From positions 5,580,001 to 5,644,000 of the forward strand of contig NZ_CP117522.1 of the NCBI RefSeq assembly GCF_031679605.1: a stretch of 64,000 bases of DNA, given 5' to 3'. Numbering within the stretch: the stretch's first letter is position 1; the number at the start of each line of letters is the position of its first letter. The translations under genes were made by a program, and so were the position numbers. Shown in pieces: positions 47,525-64,000 of the stretch. The notes beneath the pieces are model-generated. The model searched no databases. It saw only the letters and a program-made list of their open reading frames with translations, and was not told the origin of the DNA. This DNA comes from Streptomyces luomodiensis (GTDB lineage Bacteria > Actinomycetota > Actinomycetes > Streptomycetales > Streptomycetaceae).

Positions 47525-47685
47525 GACCCTTTGCGCTGCCTGTTAGCTGCTCCCTGCCCGTCACCAGGGGCATGCCCACCTCCGAGCACTACCGATGGAA
47601 ACACCCTGACCAGGGATTTCATCCATGAGCTCGCGGTGGGACCGGTACGCGCGTAGTGAGTCCGAGCCCTCGGAAGGACCCCCTC

Positions 47686-51168
<3,483 letters not shown>

Positions 51169-51268: not shown

Positions 51269-55183
<3,915 letters not shown>

Positions 55184-55266: not shown

Positions 55267-55317
55267 CGGCGTTCTCCGGTGGTCCGCCGTGCCGAATGTG
55301 CTTCCGGGCCGGGGGAC

Positions 55318-56901
55318 TCAGTGGGAGACGGCGGCCTCCGGGGCCGCCTCGGGCCGCGGCGGGGTCGGACCCGGTGCGCCGAACCAGGTCTCCAGGGCGG
55401 CCCCCAGCCGCTCCGGCGCGGTGTCGTCGGAGGCGGTGGCCGCCCAGCACACATAGCCGTCGGGACGTACCAGGACCGCGTCGGCCGGTACGTCCGGCAG
55501 CGCGTCGGCGGTCACCACGTCGACGCGGTCCGGATAGGCGGTGGCGAGCGTGCCCCACCGCCGGGTGGTGCCGGTGGTGAGCAGCAGGCCCCGGCCGTGC
55601 CGGAGCAGCGCGCTCACCGGCCGCTCCGCCCCGTCCACCGTGAGGTCGGGGTCCGGCATGCGGGCACCGGTCAGCCCGTCGTCCGTACCGGCTCCGGGCA
55701 TCGGGTAACGGATGTCCAGTCCGGAGACCATGCCGGCGAGGAAGTGGCTGACCGGGCCCATCCCCAGCAGCCGGACGAAGATCGAGCGCAGTCCGTCGTA
55801 CTCCTCCGACGGGTTGGTCAGCACCGCCTGGGCGCGGGTGTTCTCCACGACGCTCGCCCCGATGGGGTGCCGTTCGCCGTGGTAGCTGTCCAGCAGGCCG
55901 GCCGGGGCCCAGCCGGCCACCTCGGCAGCGAGTTTCCAGCCCAGGTTCATGGCGTCCTGCACCCCGAGGTTGAGGCCCTGCCCGGCGGCGGGCAGATGCA
56001 CATGGGCGGCGTCGCCGGCCAGCAGCACCCGGTCCCGCCGGTAGTGCTCGGCCTGGTACGCGGAGTCGGTGAACCGGGAGAGCCAGCGGATCTCGTCGAC
56101 CTCCACCGCGTCGCCGTAGCGCAGCCGCACCGAGTCGTGGACCTCGGCCTCGGTCACCGGCTGGTCCGGATCGGTCTCACCGCGCCCGTAGATCCCCCAC
56201 ACCACCCGGTAGAGGCCGTTCTGCAGGGGGACCAGGGGCCAGGTCATCCGGTCCTGGTGGGCCTTGTCCACGCCCAGGAGGTCGCGGATGGACTTGGGGC
56301 GTTCGCCCAGCGCGTCGGCGCCCTTCTTCAGGGTCACATCGGCGACCACACCGGAGAACGCGGTCTTGGTGCCGGGGAAGGCCACGCCCAGCCGTTTCCG
56401 TACGGCGCTGCGGCCGCCGTCGCAGCCGACCAGATAGCGGGAGCGCAGCCGGACGGCACCGTCCGGGGTGGCCACCGTGGCGGTGACCCCGTCGGCGTCC
56501 TGTGCGAGGTCGACCAGCTCGTGGGAGCGGCGCACCTCGATGCCGTAACGGGCGGCCAGCGCCTCCTCCAGCACGCCTTCCACCCGGTCCTGCGGGATGA
56601 TCACGCCGTAGGGGTGGCGGCTGCCCCAGCCGCGGTAGTTCATCACCACCGGCAGTCCGGCGAAGTGGGCGTCGGGCACCTGGGCCAGCGAGCGCTCCAG
56701 CACGGCGTCGAGCAGGCCGCGCATGGCGAGCACCTCGACCGTGCGCGGCTGCAGGCCCAGGGCCTTGGAGTGCTCGTTGGGGTCGGCCAGTTTGTCGATC
56801 ACGATGACGCGCACACCGGCGAGGGCGAGTTCATGGGCCAGTGTGAGCCCGGTGGGGCCGCTGCCGACCACCACGACGTCCGTGGACTGTGCTGTGCTCA
56901 T
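55318..56901 (-). CDS. FAD-dependent monooxygenase, class A fold (cluster)
   Basis: A 527-residue flavoprotein of the PHBH/aromatic hydroxylase fold. Dinucleotide motif VVVGSGPTGLTLAHELALAG, DG motif YLVGCDGGRSAVRKRLG and GD motif RVLLAGDAAHVHLPAAGQGL are intact. The C-terminal 140 residues form the thioredoxin-like domain of the longer polyketide-hydroxylase members. I chose the second of two tandem ATGs (56901), six bases after GAGGAG. It is divergent from the next flavoenzyme. Likely roles are hydroxylation, epoxidation or ring cleavage of the pathway product. Some members of this fold in tetramate pathways (PyrE3 of pyrroindomycin) instead catalyse cycloaddition without redox. Confidence 0.85.
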   Translation of the reverse strand: MSTAQSTDVVVVGSGPTGLTLAHELALAGVRVIVIDKLADPNEHSKALGLQPRTVEVLAMRGLLDAVLERSLAQVPDAHFAGLPVVMNYRGWGSRHPYGVIIPQDRVEGVLEEALAARYGIEVRRSHELVDLAQDADGVTATVATPDGAVRLRSRYLVGCDGGRSAVRKRLGVAFPGTKTAFSGVVADVTLKKGADALGERPKSIRDLLGVDKAHQDRMTWPLVPLQNGLYRVVWGIYGRGETDPDQPVTEAEVHDSVRLRYGDAVEVDEIRWLSRFTDSAYQAEHYRRDRVLLAGDAAHVHLPAAGQGLNLGVQDAMNLGWKLAAEVAGWAPAGLLDSYHGERHPIGASVVENTRAQAVLTNPSEEYDGLRSIFVRLLGMGPVSHFLAGMVSGLDIRYPMPGAGTDDGLTGARMPDPDLTVDGAERPVSALLRHGRGLLLTTGTTRRWGTLATAYPDRVDVVTADALPDVPADAVLVRPDGYVCWAATASDDTAPERLGAALETWFGAPGPTPPRPEAAPEAAVSH

Positions 56902-57205
56902 CATCGGCTCCTCGACGCGTTCGCTGCGAATATCGCCAATACTGCCGAGCACTATATTTCTCCACCGGTGCGAAACGGCAAGCCAATGTCCTGCAACTCG
57001 CCCTGGTGATCGGATAGTTAGGGGTGATAAGGGCAACGGTAGGGGGTTGAACGCGGCACCGCGGGTCCATAGCGTAAGGGCCGCTCGAAGCGTCTCTCAT
57101 TCCCCCGTGAATTGCCTGACCTGGGCAGTGGAATTCACGTTGCGCGATTGATTCACCGGGGCGCCGATTCGCGGACATGCCGACTCACGAGCAGCAAGGA
57201 AGCGT
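56902..57205. promoter_or_regulatory. Divergent promoter region of two cluster flavoenzymes
   Basis: About 300 bases with lower G+C than the surroundings (for example ATATTT near 56954). It contains a 32-base interrupted palindrome at 57107-57138, GTGAATTGCC opposed by AATTCAC with an inner GCC/GGC, which could be an operator for a TetR- or MarR-type regulator. No regulator gene is visible in the window. Confidence 0.4.
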
Positions 57206-58738
57206 ATGGACACCGATGTGATCGTGGTGGGGGCGGGTGCCACCGGGCTGATGCTGGCGGCGGAACTCGCGCTGGCCGGCGTCCGCCCCGTGATCCTGGA
57301 GACCCTCGGCGCTCGCAGCACCCAGTCCCGGGCCCTCAACCTCCACCCCCGCACCTCGGAGATCCTTCAGGCCCGCGGACTCCTGGACGACCTGCTGGCA
57401 CACCAGATCGTGCTCGGCACCCCGGCCCACAGCTTCTTCGGGGCGCTGCCCGTACCGCTGGACTGCCATCCGTGGCGCACCCGGCACCCGTACCAGATCG
57501 GGGTCCTCCAGACCCGGGTCGAGGAGCGGCTGGAGCGGCGCCTGGCCGAACTGGGCGTCACGGTCTCCCGCGGCCACGAGGTGACCGCCGTGGCGCAGGA
57601 CCCCGACGGCGTCACCGCCACCGTGCGGACGGCCACGGGCGAGCACCGCCTGCGCGCCCGCTACCTGGTGGGCTGCGACGGCGGCCGGAGCCGGGTGCGG
57701 AAGGCGCTGGGCGCGGCGTTCCCCGGTACGGACGGCAGCCAGCTGTTCGTCGCCGCCGATGTGGTGCTGGCCCGTCCGCCCGAGCGGTGGCACGCCGAGC
57801 TGGACCCCGAACGGCAGCGGTATCTGAGGCTGCTGCCGGGCAACAGCATGGCCGGGGTGGTGCCGGTGCCCGGCGGCCGGCTGATGTTCTCCCTGCGGGC
57901 GCTGGAGGACGGCGTCCACCGGCTGAGCTTCTCCGGGCCTGCCGTGCAGCGGGTGCCCCGTACGGAGCCGGTCGCCGAGGCGGAGATCCGGGAGGCGATC
58001 CGTACCGCCTGCGGACTGGACAGCGAGCTGAAGGAGGTCCGCTGGGCGTCCCGGTTCAGCGACGCCTGCCGTCAGGTGGAGCAGTACCGGCACGGCCGGG
58101 TGCTGCTGGCCGGCGACGCCGCGCACATCATCGTGCCGCTGGGCGGCCAGGGGCTGAACCTCGGCCTCCAGGACGCGTTCAACCTGGGCTGGAAGCTGGC
58201 CGCCGAGGTGGCCGGGTGGGCCCCGCCCGGACTGCTGGACACCTACCACACCGAACGGCACCCCGCCGCGGCCGTCCTGCTCAGGGAGGCGCGGGCCCAG
58301 TTCTCGCTGCTGGACGGCGGGCCGGAGCTGACGCCGCTGCGGGAGGTGCTGATCGAACTGCTGGGCCTGCCCGAGACCAACCGGCACCTGGCCGGTGTCG
58401 TCTCCGGCCTCGGGCTGCGCCATCCCGCGCCCGCCGGCGCGCACCCCCTCGTCGGCCGCCGGCTGCCGGACCTGGACCTGCGCACCGCGGACGGGCCGCT
58501 CCCCGTCCACCGGCTGCTGCGCGGCGGCCGCGGGGTCTTCCTCGACCTCTCGGGCGGCGCGGCGGACGAGGAGGTCGTCGGCGCGTGGGCGCACCGGGTG
58601 GACATCCGGGCGGCGACGACGGACGACGACCTCGGCGCCCGGCAGGTGCTGGTGCGGCCGGACGGCCATGTGTGCTGGGCCGACGACCGCGACCGGCTGG
58701 CCGACGCGCTGGGCGAGTGGTTCGGCGCACCGCGGTGA
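57206..58738 (+). CDS. FAD-dependent monooxygenase, class A fold, second copy
   Basis: A 510-residue protein paralogous to the divergent neighbour. Motifs: VIVVGAGATGLMLAAELALAG, YLVGCDGGRSRVRKALG and RVLLAGDAAHIIVPLGGQGL followed by the Asp-Ala-x-Asn-Leu-Gly-Trp-Lys stretch. The C-terminal thioredoxin-like domain is shorter. AAGGA precedes ATG at 57206. Overall resemblance is to PgaE/RdmE-like polyketide hydroxylases. The stop codon lies inside a 21-base direct duplication (58717-58764). Confidence 0.87.
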   Translation: MDTDVIVVGAGATGLMLAAELALAGVRPVILETLGARSTQSRALNLHPRTSEILQARGLLDDLLAHQIVLGTPAHSFFGALPVPLDCHPWRTRHPYQIGVLQTRVEERLERRLAELGVTVSRGHEVTAVAQDPDGVTATVRTATGEHRLRARYLVGCDGGRSRVRKALGAAFPGTDGSQLFVAADVVLARPPERWHAELDPERQRYLRLLPGNSMAGVVPVPGGRLMFSLRALEDGVHRLSFSGPAVQRVPRTEPVAEAEIREAIRTACGLDSELKEVRWASRFSDACRQVEQYRHGRVLLAGDAAHIIVPLGGQGLNLGLQDAFNLGWKLAAEVAGWAPPGLLDTYHTERHPAAAVLLREARAQFSLLDGGPELTPLREVLIELLGLPETNRHLAGVVSGLGLRHPAPAGAHPLVGRRLPDLDLRTADGPLPVHRLLRGGRGVFLDLSGGAADEEVVGAWAHRVDIRAATTDDDLGARQVLVRPDGHVCWADDRDRLADALGEWFGAPR

Positions 58739-58903
58739 GCCGGCGGTTCGGCGCACCGCGGTGAGTCATGGCCAGTGGTCGGCTGGTGGCGGAATTCCCG
58801 ACCGCGATTCCCGTTCCCTGTTCCCGTTCTTCGACCCCCGTCCCCGTTCCACGATTCCACCGTATTCGAACAGCAATTCCCGACTTCCGAAGGGGCATGG
58901 AAA

Positions 58904-59497
58904 ATGACGTCCACGGTTTCCACCGAAGGGCCGGTCTACCGCGAGTACAAGGGTTTCCGGGTCAACGACAACATCGTCGCGGATTTCATCGGCGTACCGG
59001 CGGTGATCACGCCGGGTGAGACGATCGAATTCTCGGTCTTCTACACGAACCGGGGCCGTTACCACTACCCGGACACCGGGCTCAACCTGGTCATCTGGTT
59101 CTCGGACCGGGATGATCTGCGCCGGGAGGACTTCAAGCTCTTCTACAAGGTCAGCCGGGCCGAGTGGCAGGAGCAGGACCCCGAGAAGTGCTGGGACCCG
59201 CAGTTCCCCGCCGAGGGCGGCGTCCACATCGCCTGCCAGCTGAGCGGGCCCGACGGCGGCATCCTCAGCAAGCCCGACGGCACGGTCCCGCTGCCCGAGG
59301 TCGAGTCGGTCACCGCGCATGTGCGGCTGGCCTTCCGCGAAGGGATCACCTCCGAGCACGCGGGCATCTTCGCGCTGCCGGGCATGCTGGACGCCCCCGG
59401 CGACAAGTCGATCATCCCGGGTCTGTTCGGCAATGTCTTCGGCCGGCTCCAGCAGGCCAGCTTCCGGCTGGGCGAGGGCCCGACCTCCCTCTACTGA
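58904..59497 (+). CDS. Unrecognised beta-rich cluster protein
   Basis: A 197-residue protein I do not recognise. There is no signal peptide or membrane segment. From about residue 20 the pattern is alternating hydrophobic strands with turns (DFIGVPAVITPGETIEFSV, then YTNRGRYHYPDTGLNLVIWF), like an immunoglobulin-type beta-sandwich as found in CARDB-like domains. Charged and aromatic residues follow (SRAEWQEQDPEKCWDPQFP), and the end is Gly/Leu-rich. One in-frame ATG lies 43 codons earlier, but this start begins the conserved-looking part. It sits between a flavoenzyme and the cyclase-like gene, so a small accessory enzyme, for example a cyclase, is plausible. Confidence 0.7.
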   Translation: MTSTVSTEGPVYREYKGFRVNDNIVADFIGVPAVITPGETIEFSVFYTNRGRYHYPDTGLNLVIWFSDRDDLRREDFKLFYKVSRAEWQEQDPEKCWDPQFPAEGGVHIACQLSGPDGGILSKPDGTVPLPEVESVTAHVRLAFREGITSEHAGIFALPGMLDAPGDKSIIPGLFGNVFGRLQQASFRLGEGPTSLY

Positions 59498-59580
59498 TCC
59501 GGTCCGCTGGTCCGGCTCTGCTGATCCGGTCCGCTGATCCGGTCCGCGCCTTCCACTGACCTTCGGCTCGGGAGTGCCTC

Positions 59581-60393
59581 ATGGCGGCAATCAACACCTG
59601 GCGAACGCTCAAGGAGGGGGCCGACGGCCTCGTCCTGGCCATCGACTACCCCTTCACCGGCCGTCCGGAGGCCGGTTTCCCGGAGCTGGCCCCGCAGCTC
59701 GACATCGACTACGCCCTCTGGGAGTCCGTGCCCCCGAGCATGGGGAGCGAGACGGGGATGACCGCGGACGGCTATCTGGACCGGTGGCACGCGGACGTCC
59801 GCACGGGCGGCCTGCCCGTGCGGGCCGTGCTCGGCTTCTGCGCGGGCAGCGTCTACGCGGCCGCCCTCGCCGACCGGATCGCCGCCGAACAGCCACAGGC
59901 CCCGCGGGTCGTCCTGTTCGACCCCGAGGCGCCGAACGCGGTCACCGTCTACTGGCAGTTCCACAAGGTCATCGAGGGGCTGGGGGTGGTGCTGCGGCCC
60001 GAGGAGGTGACCGAGGCGCAGCAGGCCGGCCAGCGCGTCAGCGATGGCGCCACCGACCTGGACCGGCTGCGGGACCAGCTGTTGGGCGTGTTCGGCGAGT
60101 GGGCCCAGGTCGCCTTCGACCGGGCGGGGCTCGACGAGGTCCGCCGGGCGGAGTTCACCGCGACGGTCACCGCGTTCATGACCTATCTGGTGGCCGCCGC
60201 CGGGATCGACACCCGGGACGGCTGGCCCGGTGCCACGGCCATCAGCTCGGTCACCACCACCAACGGGCTGAACCTGCTGCCCGAGGCCGAGCGGCCGGCG
60301 AAGGTGGCCCGCGAGATCCGCTTCGACCTGGCCCACGCCGATCTGCTGCGGTCCGCCGACGTGGCGAAGACCGTGGCGGATCTGCTCCGTTGA
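59581..60393 (+). CDS. Cys-type alpha/beta-hydrolase, probable tetramate Dieckmann cyclase
   Basis: A 270-residue stand-alone thioesterase-fold protein. The nucleophile elbow reads GFCAGS, with Cys87 where type II thioesterases have Ser. The acid is probably Asp114 (VVLFDPEAP) and the base His252 (FDLAHADLL). A Cys-Asp-His triad in a protein of this size, beside a glycine NRPS module lacking a thioesterase, matches TrdC, SlgL and NcmC, which release an acyl-glycyl thioester by Dieckmann condensation to give a 3-acyl tetramic acid. GGAG lies seven bases before the ATG. The alternative is an editing thioesterase with a Cys nucleophile. Homology to TrdC is inferred from pattern and context, not from a search. 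Confidence 0.7.
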   Translation: MAAINTWRTLKEGADGLVLAIDYPFTGRPEAGFPELAPQLDIDYALWESVPPSMGSETGMTADGYLDRWHADVRTGGLPVRAVLGFCAGSVYAAALADRIAAEQPQAPRVVLFDPEAPNAVTVYWQFHKVIEGLGVVLRPEEVTEAQQAGQRVSDGATDLDRLRDQLLGVFGEWAQVAFDRAGLDEVRRAEFTATVTAFMTYLVAAAGIDTRDGWPGATAISSVTTTNGLNLLPEAERPAKVAREIRFDLAHADLLRSADVAKTVADLLR

Positions 60394-60406
60394 GAGGACA
60401 CACCTG

Positions 60407-63400
60407 ATGCGCACACGGACGGACCCCGGCCCCAGCGGCACCGGAAGGGTGCCGCGGCCGGAACCGGTCGGCCGGAAGGAGGAGGCGCTGTGGCTGCTGG
60501 AACGGCTGGTCCCCGGCGCCGCCGTGAACAACCTGTCCTTCACCTTCCGGGTGCGCGGCAGCGTGGACCGGTCCCTCCTGCGGGAGTCCGTGACGCTGCT
60601 CGTACGACGCCACGAGACGCTGCGCACCGTGTTCCACGCCGACGACGCCGGGCTGGCCAAGGCCGTCCTGGACGCCGACGAGGCCGGTGTGGAGGTGCTG
60701 ACCGTACCGGCCGCGCACCACACCGGGCAGGCGCTGACCTCGTTCGTGGCCACGCCGTTCACCTTCGACGGCCGGCCGCTGCTGCGCGTCGGGCACCTGC
60801 CGGGTGAGGGCGAGGACATCGTCTGCCTGGTCCTGCACCACCTCGTCTTCGACACCATCTCCGCGGGCATCCTCCTGGGCGAGCTGGTCGAGGTGTACAC
60901 CGCGCTCGCCGCGAACCGGCCGCCGGCCCCCCATCTGCTGGAACCCGTGCCGGCGTTGCGGGAGGAGGAGCCGAGCGCCGACAGCCTCGCCTACTGGCAC
61001 CAGCAGCTCCAGGGCTTCGACCCCGGAGGGCTCGAGCTGGCCTACGGCAGGCAGGAGGCCGCCGGCGCGACCCTGGGCGGTGACCAGCTGACCGTCACCG
61101 TGCCCCGGGAGGTCCGGGCCGCGGTGGACCGGCTGCGCACCGAACTGAACACCTCCGAGGCCGTCGTCCTGCTCGCCGCCTACGGCCTGCTGCTCGCCCA
61201 GCACGGGGCAGGCCCGGACCTGGCCGTGGGCACCATGGTGAACGTACGGGGCCGCTCCGCACCCAGCGCGATCGGCTACCACGTCAACGTGGTGCCCCTG
61301 CGGTTCACGGTGGACCCCGGCGACAGCTTCCGGGAGCTGGCCCTGCGGGCCGGGAGGGTCTTCCTCGACGGCATCGCGCACGCCGATGTGCCGGTGGACA
61401 GCCTCTACAACGAGGTGACCCGGGAGGGCGGCGCCTGGCGCAACAGCCTCTTCCGGCACGTCTTCAACTACGTACCGGGCCTGGGCCTGCCCGACTTCTC
61501 CATCGGCGGCCTCGCCGCGAGCCCCCTGGTCGTCGAGGTCCCGTACAGCAAGTTCGACCTGGAGTTCTTCGTCATGTCGACGGACGAGGAACTGCGGCTG
61601 CGCATCGTCTACAGCGACGACGTGTTCACCCGCGACGAGGTCGCCGCGCTGCTGCGCCGCTACGAGGTGCTGCTGTCGTCCCTGGCCGAGGACCCCGGAC
61701 TGCCCCTCGGCGGCGCCGTGGCCTGGAGCGAGCACGACCACGCCGTGATTGACGCCGCCGGCCGGCCCGCGCCGGACAAGCCCCCGCTCTCCGTGCTCGC
61801 CGACGTGCGGCGGACGGTGGCGAGGACACCGGACGCGGTGGCCGTCGAGGACGCGGACGGCCCGCGGACCTACCGGCAGCTGTGGGACTCGGCCCGCGCC
61901 ATCGCGGGCGCGCTGCGCGACCACGGCATCGGCGACGGCGATGTGGTCGCGCTGCTCGCACCGCGCTCGGCCGCACTGGCCGCGGCCGTGCTCGGCGTAT
62001 GGCTCACCGGTGCGGTGTACCTCCCCCTGGACCCCGACCACCCCGCGCACCGCCTCGCGTACCAGCTCGCGGACTCCGGGGCCAAGGCGGTGCTGGCCGG
62101 GGACGGGGCCGTGCCCGCGCGGGAGGGGGTGCCGGTGCTGCGCCTGGCCGACGTGGCGGGCCTGGCCGATGTGGCCGGCCTGGCCGACGTGGCCGCACGA
62201 TCGGTTGCGGACGCACGATCGAGTGCGGACGCCCGGTCGGTTGCGGTGGTTCCCGACGCCGGTACTGGTGACGCTTCCGATCCCGGTGCCGACCCCGGTG
62301 CCGGTCCCGACCCCGATCCGGCCGGGGCCGCCTACCTGATCTACACCTCCGGGTCGACCGGGCGGCCGAAGGGGACCCTGGTCTCCCACGGCAACCTCGG
62401 CAATGTGGTGGGGCACTTCGCCGATGAACTCCGGGCCCGGCCGGGGGAGACCACGCTGTGGCTGACCACCTTCAGCTTCGACATCTCCGCCCTGGAACTG
62501 TTCCTGCCGCTGGTCACCGGCGGACGTCTGGTGGCCGCGCCGGACACCGCGCGGTCCGACGGCCGTGTCCTGGCCGCTCTGCTGAGGGACCAGCGGGTCG
62601 ACATCGTCCAGGCCACCCCGACCACCTGGCGGCTGGTGACCGACGACTGCCGGGAGCAGCTGAACGGGCGGCGCGTGCTGTGCGGCGGCGAACCGCTCCC
62701 GTCGGCCCTGGCCGGGGAACTGGCCGCGGCCGGCTGTGAGCTGCGCAATGTCTACGGGCCGACGGAGACCACCATCTGGTCGACGTCCGGCCTGGTCGAG
62801 CCGGGTTCCGGGGGTCCGGTGCACGTCGGCCGGCCGATCCGCGACACCCGGGTGTTCATCGCCGCCCCCGACGGTGCGGAACTGCCGGTGGGGGTGCGGG
62901 GCGAGTTGTGCATCGCCGGTGGCGGAGTGGCCATCGGCTACCACGGCCGCCCGGAGCTGACCGCCGACCGGTTCCGGGACCACCCCCGCCACGGGCGCCA
63001 CTACCGCACCGGCGACCTCGCCCGGTGGCGGGGAGACGGCACGCTGGAGGTGCTCGGCCGCGTCGACCGGCAGGTGAAGCTGCGGGGCAACCGGATCGAG
63101 CTGGGCGAGGTGGAGAGCGTCCTCCTGGGCCACCCCGCCGTCCGGGCGGCGGCCGCACTGGTCGTCACGGGCGAGGCGGACGACGCCCGGCTGGTGGCGT
63201 TCCTCGTCGCCGAGGACGCCCCCGGCCTGGTCAACCAGGTCTGGGAGCATGCCCGCGGCAACCTCCCGGCCCCCGCGGTCCCCGGGGAGTTCCTCGTCGT
63301 CGACGCCCTGCCCACCACCGGAAACCACAAGGTCGACTATCTGGCGCTGGCCCGTCGGATACGGGACCGCGACCACGAACGGGCCGAGCCGTCCACGGCC

Positions 63401-63634
63401 GGGCCCGAGGACGAACTCGTAGGAAAACTCATCACGCTGTGGCAGGACGTGCTCGGCCGCACCGATCTGCACGCCCATTCCAATTTCTTCACCAGTGGCG
63501 GCCATTCCCTGCTGGCGGCGAAGCTCGCCCAGTCCGTTGAGGAACGGCTCGGCGTACGCCTTCAGCTCGCCGAAATCTTCACCAGGCCCAGCCCGGCCCA
63601 ATTGGCGGAATTCCTCCGATCCGGCGGCGAATGA
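60407..63634 (+). CDS. NRPS module C-A-PCP, predicted glycine-activating
   Basis: A 1075-residue single module. The condensation domain spans about residues 20-450, with the catalytic HHLVFDTIS at 144-152. The adenylation domain runs from about 470 to 985: IYTSGSTGRPKG at 645-656, NVYGPTETT near 781, YRTGDLARW, and NHKVD with the catalytic Lys975. The carrier domain has GGHS with Ser1034. There is no thioesterase or epimerase. Reading the ten specificity positions against GrsA gives D-I-L-Q-L-G-V-I-W-K, one change from the classic glycine code. An unusual Ala/Asp/Gly-rich insert of about 55 residues precedes the YTSGSTG loop. It would condense an upstream acyl chain with glycine. Confidence 0.88.
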   Translation: MRTRTDPGPSGTGRVPRPEPVGRKEEALWLLERLVPGAAVNNLSFTFRVRGSVDRSLLRESVTLLVRRHETLRTVFHADDAGLAKAVLDADEAGVEVLTVPAAHHTGQALTSFVATPFTFDGRPLLRVGHLPGEGEDIVCLVLHHLVFDTISAGILLGELVEVYTALAANRPPAPHLLEPVPALREEEPSADSLAYWHQQLQGFDPGGLELAYGRQEAAGATLGGDQLTVTVPREVRAAVDRLRTELNTSEAVVLLAAYGLLLAQHGAGPDLAVGTMVNVRGRSAPSAIGYHVNVVPLRFTVDPGDSFRELALRAGRVFLDGIAHADVPVDSLYNEVTREGGAWRNSLFRHVFNYVPGLGLPDFSIGGLAASPLVVEVPYSKFDLEFFVMSTDEELRLRIVYSDDVFTRDEVAALLRRYEVLLSSLAEDPGLPLGGAVAWSEHDHAVIDAAGRPAPDKPPLSVLADVRRTVARTPDAVAVEDADGPRTYRQLWDSARAIAGALRDHGIGDGDVVALLAPRSAALAAAVLGVWLTGAVYLPLDPDHPAHRLAYQLADSGAKAVLAGDGAVPAREGVPVLRLADVAGLADVAGLADVAARSVADARSSADARSVAVVPDAGTGDASDPGADPGAGPDPDPAGAAYLIYTSGSTGRPKGTLVSHGNLGNVVGHFADELRARPGETTLWLTTFSFDISALELFLPLVTGGRLVAAPDTARSDGRVLAALLRDQRVDIVQATPTTWRLVTDDCREQLNGRRVLCGGEPLPSALAGELAAAGCELRNVYGPTETTIWSTSGLVEPGSGGPVHVGRPIRDTRVFIAAPDGAELPVGVRGELCIAGGGVAIGYHGRPELTADRFRDHPRHGRHYRTGDLARWRGDGTLEVLGRVDRQVKLRGNRIELGEVESVLLGHPAVRAAAALVVTGEADDARLVAFLVAEDAPGLVNQVWEHARGNLPAPAVPGEFLVVDALPTTGNHKVDYLALARRIRDRDHERAEPSTAGPEDELVGKLITLWQDVLGRTDLHAHSNFFTSGGHSLLAAKLAQSVEERLGVRLQLAEIFTRPSPAQLAEFLRSGGE

Positions 63635-63724
63635 TCCGGCCGGACGTCTCAGCCGGACGTCTCAGCCGCGGTTCGGAATTCGCCCGCACGACGCGCCGAT
63701 TCTTCTCCCCGACGTCAGGACACC

Positions 63725-64000
63725 ATGATGAGCGAGACCGCAACGGCAGCCACCGAAGAGGAAACCTTCTCCTTTCCCCAGCCCCGCACCTGTCCCCACC
63801 GGCCGCCCGCCGGCTACGCGGCGCTGCACGCCCACGGGCCCCTGGCCGAGGTGACCCTGTACGACGGCAGCACCGCCTTGCTGGTCACCCGGCACGCGGA
63901 CGCCCGCCGCCTGCTCACCGACCCCCGGGTGTCCTCGGAACGGGCCAGCGACGGATTCCCGATCATCACGCCCCGGCTGCTGGGCGCCCGGTGGTTCCGC
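63725..64000 (+). CDS. Cytochrome P450, N-terminal part (cut by window end)
   Basis: The first 92 residues of a soluble bacterial P450. The opening pattern FPQPRTCPHRPPAGYAAL, then GPLAEVTLYDGSTALLVT and DARRLLTDPRVSSERA, is that of Streptomyces P450s of secondary metabolism. The heme-binding Cys lies beyond the window. Two adjacent ATGs (63725 and 63728) are possible starts. The gene follows the NRPS gene by 90 bases, in the same direction, and is likely a tailoring oxidase. Confidence 0.88.
   Translation, partial: MMSETATAATEEETFSFPQPRTCPHRPPAGYAALHAHGPLAEVTLYDGSTALLVTRHADARRLLTDPRVSSERASDGFPIITPRLLGARWFR

Follow-up and report, generated by a model that had tools for sequence, protein, structure and literature searches.

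The biosynthetic gene cluster of alchivemycin (avm) has been described for strain TP-A0867 and for Streptomyces hygroscopicus (PMC5078962 and PMC9349299). Another cluster, that of the thiopeptide GE2270 in Planobispora rosea, is described in PMC3943966 as lying between rpoC on its upstream side and rpsL, rpsG, fusA and tuf on its downstream side, with tuf as its resistance gene. In this study, we analyzed a window of 64,000 nucleotides (bases 5580001-5644000) of the single-contig, 10.04 Mb chromosome of Streptomyces luomodiensis, joined for the analysis to the next 100 kb. A first-pass annotation of the window had read the genes behind rpoC as a probable acyl-tetramate cluster that continues to the right and matches no cluster that could be named. 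We conclude, with a probability of about 95%, that these genes are the left end of an intact-looking avm cluster, which was acquired into the interval from the rpoC hairpin to the region that precedes rpsL. The avm cluster is already described; S. luomodiensis adds a complete-genome copy with a linked exporter and linked regulators that are absent from the 2016 gene table of TP-A0867.

The identification is based on the near-identity of AvmM and its conserved site residues, the order of the acyltransferase (AT) motifs, an NcmC-type cyclase and six redox genes. According to PMC9349299, AvmM turns the linear acyl-tetramate 3 into the macrocycle 2 by an elimination and a Michael-type addition. 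The 197-aa protein that the first-pass annotation did not recognise gave no Pfam match, and a longer frame likewise had no match in Pfam and NCBIfam. It matched PDB entries 7FE6, 7FE5 and 7FE0 with E values from 5e-133 to 2e-132 and is identical to 7FE6 at 192/197 positions (five differences, counted on the alignment). Moreover, all 17 of the published AvmM site residues that were checked are conserved. Thus, the protein is AvmM and the cluster can be named (PMC5078962; PMC9349299).

Relatives of AvmM are few. A search of 5.8 billion proteins, which took in only relatives with common short exact words, gave 11 protein clusters that are 73-99% identical. Besides Streptomyces, one of these is named Actinophytocola sp. 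(P0006, 74% identical), and several come from metagenomes. A search for avmM on plasmids gave no match. Among 392 genomes of the genus, avmM was detected in two, S. luomodiensis and Streptomyces sp. S465, which the tool placed in the same species; two AvmM loci were also found in the named genome collection, which may omit near copies.

The first-pass annotation had made its reading depend on polyketide synthase (PKS) genes to the right of the window. There, 14 PKS modules were found at 66.2-141.1 kb, and the reading of a cluster that is inserted behind rpoC and continues rightwards stands. The PKS possesses 14 ketosynthase domains, the first of which has Gln in place of Cys (KSQ loading). Among the 14 AT motifs, YASHS occurs at modules 1, 4, 7, 10 and 11, RAFHS occurs at module 2 and HAFHS makes up the rest; this is the published alchivemycin order at all 14 modules, including the unusual RAFHS, and the methylmalonyl ATs thus stand at modules 1, 4, 7, 10 and 11 as in the published plan. 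The reductive domains agree with the published plan of strain N11-34, by motif or, in the terminal modules of AvmD and AvmF, by Pfam. The first PKS is one frame of 2842 aa, whereas it is split into 2516 and 578 aa in the 2016 TP-A0867 draft. The core gene order is also that of TP-A0867 and S. hygroscopicus (flavoenzyme, flavoenzyme, AvmM, AvmQ, AvmN, P450, oxidoreductase, PKS A-F, PhyH oxygenase and flavoenzyme), with the module plan, AT motifs and AvmM alike.

AvmQ aligned to NcmC over its full length (E 1.7e-67), and NcmC was the only solved relative found. Its catalytic motifs are Cys87 in a GFCAGS elbow, Asp in LFDPEA and His in LAHADL. AvmQ is similar to the NcmC and TrdC cyclases in this Cys-Asp-His set and in length; the difference lies in the released chain, a long polyketide that is next macrocyclised by AvmM, as published for the orthologue. 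The avmQ gene was reported to be essential from its deletion (PMC9349299). In AvmN, Pfam detected Condensation, AMP-binding and PP-binding domains and no thioesterase. The adenylation domain is presumably of glycine type, a call that we made by reading its motifs against the specificity code rather than by computation; glycine specificity is published for the orthologue in the TP-A0867 gene table. The tetramate logic proposed in the first-pass annotation, a glycine module without a thioesterase and a trans-acting Dieckmann cyclase, holds, and the two class A flavoenzymes, the 197-aa protein, the Cys-Asp-His hydrolase, the condensation-adenylation-peptidyl carrier protein (C-A-PCP) module and the P450 are all present. 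The product class needs a correction: the acyl-tetramate is an intermediate rather than the end product, undergoing macrocyclisation and oxidation to a 1,2-oxazine (TDO) ring (PMC9349299 and PMC13244438).

Six redox genes were found, encoding three class A flavoenzymes, a P450, a luciferase-like protein and a PhyH oxygenase, and the published cluster is also reported to have six. In the one-to-one naming of these genes as AvmO1-O4, P and R, only a candidate AvmO1 was assigned. The first two flavoenzymes match FAD_binding_3 and Rng_hyd_C in Pfam (E 8.5e-91 and 4.2e-87). Tyr at position 282 (in our numbering) is found in the left-most flavoenzyme but not in the other two. Since an AvmO1-Y282R variant is named in PMC13244438, the left-most enzyme fits AvmO1; this one-residue fit is suggestive at most. 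Its start is most likely near 56901 rather than 57036, giving 527 aa against the published 526.

The features of the locus are listed below. Beyond 64000, positions are counted onwards from the window; gene starts there are mechanical, and some genes overlap.

47656..51168, plus strand: rpoB, housekeeping gene
51269..55183, plus strand: rpoC, housekeeping gene; its C-terminal 300 aa gave one match in the genome
55233..55266, plus strand: hairpin 3′ of rpoC with arms CAGGGCGG and CCGCCCTG, found by reading the sequence; a similar hairpin stands in four relatives with an empty site
55318..56901, minus strand: class A flavin adenine dinucleotide (FAD) monooxygenase, best AvmO1 candidate, 527 aa; the in-frame open reading frame extends to 57036
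57206..58738, plus strand: class A FAD monooxygenase, the second in avm; at 510 aa as long as published for TPA0867_155_00280
58904..59497, plus strand: avmM, macrocyclase (dehydration and Michael-type addition), 197 aa
59581..60393, plus strand: avmQ, NcmC/TrdC-type Dieckmann cyclase
60407..63634, plus strand: avmN, nonribosomal peptide synthetase (NRPS), C-A-PCP, by Pfam and motif positions
63725..64000, continuing to 64942, plus strand: cytochrome P450 whose gene starts within the window; 405 aa (p450, E 2.7e-28), the length of TPA0867_155_00320
65092-65973, minus strand: luciferase-like oxidoreductase
66243-141144: six large PKS frames (AvmA-F), 14 modules
141243-142232, minus strand: PhyH oxygenase
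142387-144105: third class A flavoenzyme
144170-145870, minus strand: MFS exporter
about 145730-146452: TetR regulator
146506-149343, minus strand: LAL-type regulator (AAA_16 and GerE)
149806-150657: FG-GAP repeat protein
150693-157441 (L006:6693-13441): M48 peptidase, a Band_7 match below the cut-off, two proteins without a Pfam family and a CRP-type regulator
from 157838: rpsL, rpsG, fusA and tuf, in that order

By homology with the characterized orthologues, the following pathway is proposed. The polyketide chain from the KSQ-loaded AvmA-F would pass to AvmN and be joined to glycine, and AvmQ would release it as a 3-acyl-tetramate. AvmM would then dehydrate the linear acyl-tetramate and close the macrocycle, which in the published orthologue occurs through the tetramate nitrogen. 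Finally, AvmO1 would oxidise the tetramate to the 1,2-oxazine ring; insertion of oxygen by this flavoenzyme to form that ring was shown for the orthologue. From their linkage, the MFS pump and its TetR neighbour may serve export or protection, and the LAL protein may activate the cluster. We infer that this strain could make alchivemycin.

Several observations weigh against a simple equation with the published cluster. In the terminal AvmD module, the simple HxxxGxxxxP motif is missing from the DH (dehydratase), though Pfam detects the domain. Some frame lengths differ from those published (AvmN, 1075 versus 1117 aa; third flavoenzyme, 572 versus 608; PhyH, 329 versus 309), and some of this difference is due to the choice of start codon. 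The TP-A0867 table has other genes after the third flavoenzyme, and the published cluster includes an XRE regulator and a phosphotransferase; the MFS, TetR, LAL and FG-GAP genes, which stand at the right end in S. luomodiensis and are not in the 2016 table, can be given only a tentative role. In addition, alchivemycin is a predicted product.

As the first-pass annotation had noted, rpsL, rpsG, fusA and tuf are displaced from behind rpoC. They resume 102.7 kb further right, the rpoC-rpsL distance being 102,657 bp. In four avmM-free relatives, the site is empty and the same distance is 337 (G069), 333 (G096), 380 (G055) and 381 bp (G165). On the left side, these genomes align to the window as far as base 55279; on the right side, the alignment starts at 157580 or 157604. 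Thus, the insertion begins a short way to the right of the rpoC hairpin, and rpoB/rpoC as well as the str operon belong to the host. PMC9349299 counts two 'RNA polymerases' (AvmK/AvmL) and four ribosomal-protein genes as avm members. The published cluster is therefore probably at the same site, and the rpoB of the window is probably one of AvmK/AvmL; the empty sites indicate that these neighbours are host core genes, although that source counts them as cluster members. Streptomyces sp. S465 has the same arrangement at both cluster ends.

On the right side, the M48/Band_7/CRP module is also present in the same gap of five other genomes (G006, G045, G079, G283 and MMG1121). Therefore, the avm insert probably ends at about 150.66 kb, and the DNA up to 157.58 kb is probably a separate module of the rpoC-rpsL gap. 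With this end, the window covers only the left 8.7 kb of a cluster of about 95 kb. An anti-phage role of the module was considered, but PADLOC gave a match to the cyclic-nucleotide portion of the CRP protein and to nothing else. A site-specific integrative element was considered and rejected: no tRNA gene was detected in two 20-kb stretches spanning the cluster ends, and the 300-base stretches taken from the outer junctions have no 11-mer in common, direct or inverted, although no systematic search for integrase genes was made. The rpoC hairpin region and the stretch at 150.56-150.86 kb share one direct and one inverted 11-mer, and these are probably terminators.

An avm-type cluster is also present in Streptomyces sp. 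MMG1121 (L008, L037), where all 13 compared proteins have a homologue with 65-87% identity; of its PKS, only the first part is present on the contig end examined. These genes lie on contig C206, apart from rpoC on C197, and the rpoC-rpsL gap of MMG1121 is 8.2 kb and holds the M48/Band_7/CRP module. The exporter, TetR, LAL and FG-GAP genes are linked to avm in MMG1121 too, in a different order: together with the third flavoenzyme and PhyH genes, all are upstream of the first flavoenzyme gene. This rearranged accessory block could help to delimit the true avm cluster.

Streptolydigin and tirandamycin, which are related tetramates, bind RNA polymerase. The cluster might therefore be kept beside rpoBC and the str operon since alchivemycin targets RNA polymerase, EF-Tu or EF-G, with a neighbouring gene as the resistant target. 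The arrangement around GE2270, with tuf downstream, is a precedent for such a design, and positions peculiar to S. luomodiensis and S465 against six avmM-free genomes were found in RpoB (12) and RpoC (4); in S. luomodiensis, FusA has 11 (10 common to S465) and EF-Tu one (residue 396). Some of these residues also occur in MMG1121 (FusA 224, 312, 348, 350 and 580; RpoB 979 and 985; Tuf 396), in what is a small panel. However, the positions are scattered and may reflect drift. The stretches that we take to be the bridge helix and the trigger loop do not differ among the nine genomes compared, and the rifampicin-region stretch of S. luomodiensis and S465 is that of G069, G154 and G008, differing in the other four. 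EF-Tu is identical to that of G069 at 396/397 positions, RpsL and RpsG have no peculiar position, and in MMG1121 the avm genes are on a contig other than that of rpoC. The comparison of RpoB/RpoC and RpsL/RpsG/FusA/Tuf thus gave no clear support, and a sign like that of tuf for GE2270 was not seen in the avm locus. We regard target-linked self-resistance as unlikely.

Still less probable is a decayed or chimeric cluster without a product. The locus is known from its sequence, and published tests of two other avm strains could not reproduce production, which would suit such a reading. In contrast, the PKS, NRPS and accessory frames are long, open and of about the published lengths, and S465 retains both ends at 97-98% DNA identity (the ends were compared, not the PKS middle). 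A plain-tetramate cluster of the tirandamycin, streptolydigin or nocamycin type, which would share the C-A-PCP and trans Dieckmann cyclase logic and whose NcmC is the sole solved relative found for the cyclase, is hardly credible against 14 PKS modules in the alchivemycin extender order and an AvmM found in only 11 protein clusters.

The rpoC-rpsL gap was also surveyed across the genus. The RpoC C-terminus and RpsL were searched in 295 Streptomyces genomes, including that of S. luomodiensis, and a genome was scorable when both matches were on the same contig and strand within 1 Mb. Among the matches listed, 210 of the 295 genomes were scorable (sets of 81 and 129). The other 85 comprise 11 whose matches fall on separate contigs or strands, G012 with 3.78 Mb between the two genes, G130 without RpsL, G001 without either match and 71 outside the matches listed; partial matches were retained for G150, G180 and G224. 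The median gap was about 1.2 kb in both sets, and it exceeded 10 kb in 23/210 genomes and 50 kb in 2/210, counts that concern this gap alone. Long clusters cause breaks in draft assemblies, so the number of large inserts is probably an underestimate.

The contents of the 23 long gaps are diverse. Two of them hold very large PKS/NRPS clusters: S. luomodiensis has avm, and in G244 an NRPS region of 156 kb carries 37 adenylation motifs (G244:C1:729001-886000, L024-L031). The gap of G155 (L059, G155:C2:494134-509414) contains YcaO, two JmjC/cupin proteins, MFS and a SARP-type regulator, a possible locus for a ribosomally synthesized and post-translationally modified peptide. That of G127 (L061, G127:C9:36852-53906) contains a TraG/TraD-like coupling protein and is a possible conjugation or secretion locus, and G014 and G182 have glycosyltransferase or polysaccharide genes. 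Phage-tail-like genes (major tail protein, tail chaperone, tape-measure-like, Dit, minor tail and endolysin) were detected in the gap of 17/210 genomes, including G025, G076, G291 and G219 (L019-L023, L058, L060, L062-L072). They were searched by tblastn with six queries, from sources including G291 and G076, that had matched tail, tape measure, Dit, minor tail and endolysin in PHROGs; among the 17, G231 matched 4/6 queries and G079 3/6, and for G068, G170, G079 and G219 the test covered 20 kb of a gap that is longer.

These results suggest that in Streptomyces the rpoC-rpsL junction repeatedly serves as a landing site, which has received whole clusters, phage-tail-like islands and small islands in turn, the avm case being one without a tRNA at its ends; we consider this somewhat more probable than not. 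Outside Streptomyces, the GE2270 cluster of P. rosea is a thiopeptide precedent at this site (PMC3943966). Searches for clusters and tail-like islands could be directed at this gap. If the junction is such a landing site, cargo placed between two highly expressed operons may be helped to persist and to be expressed.

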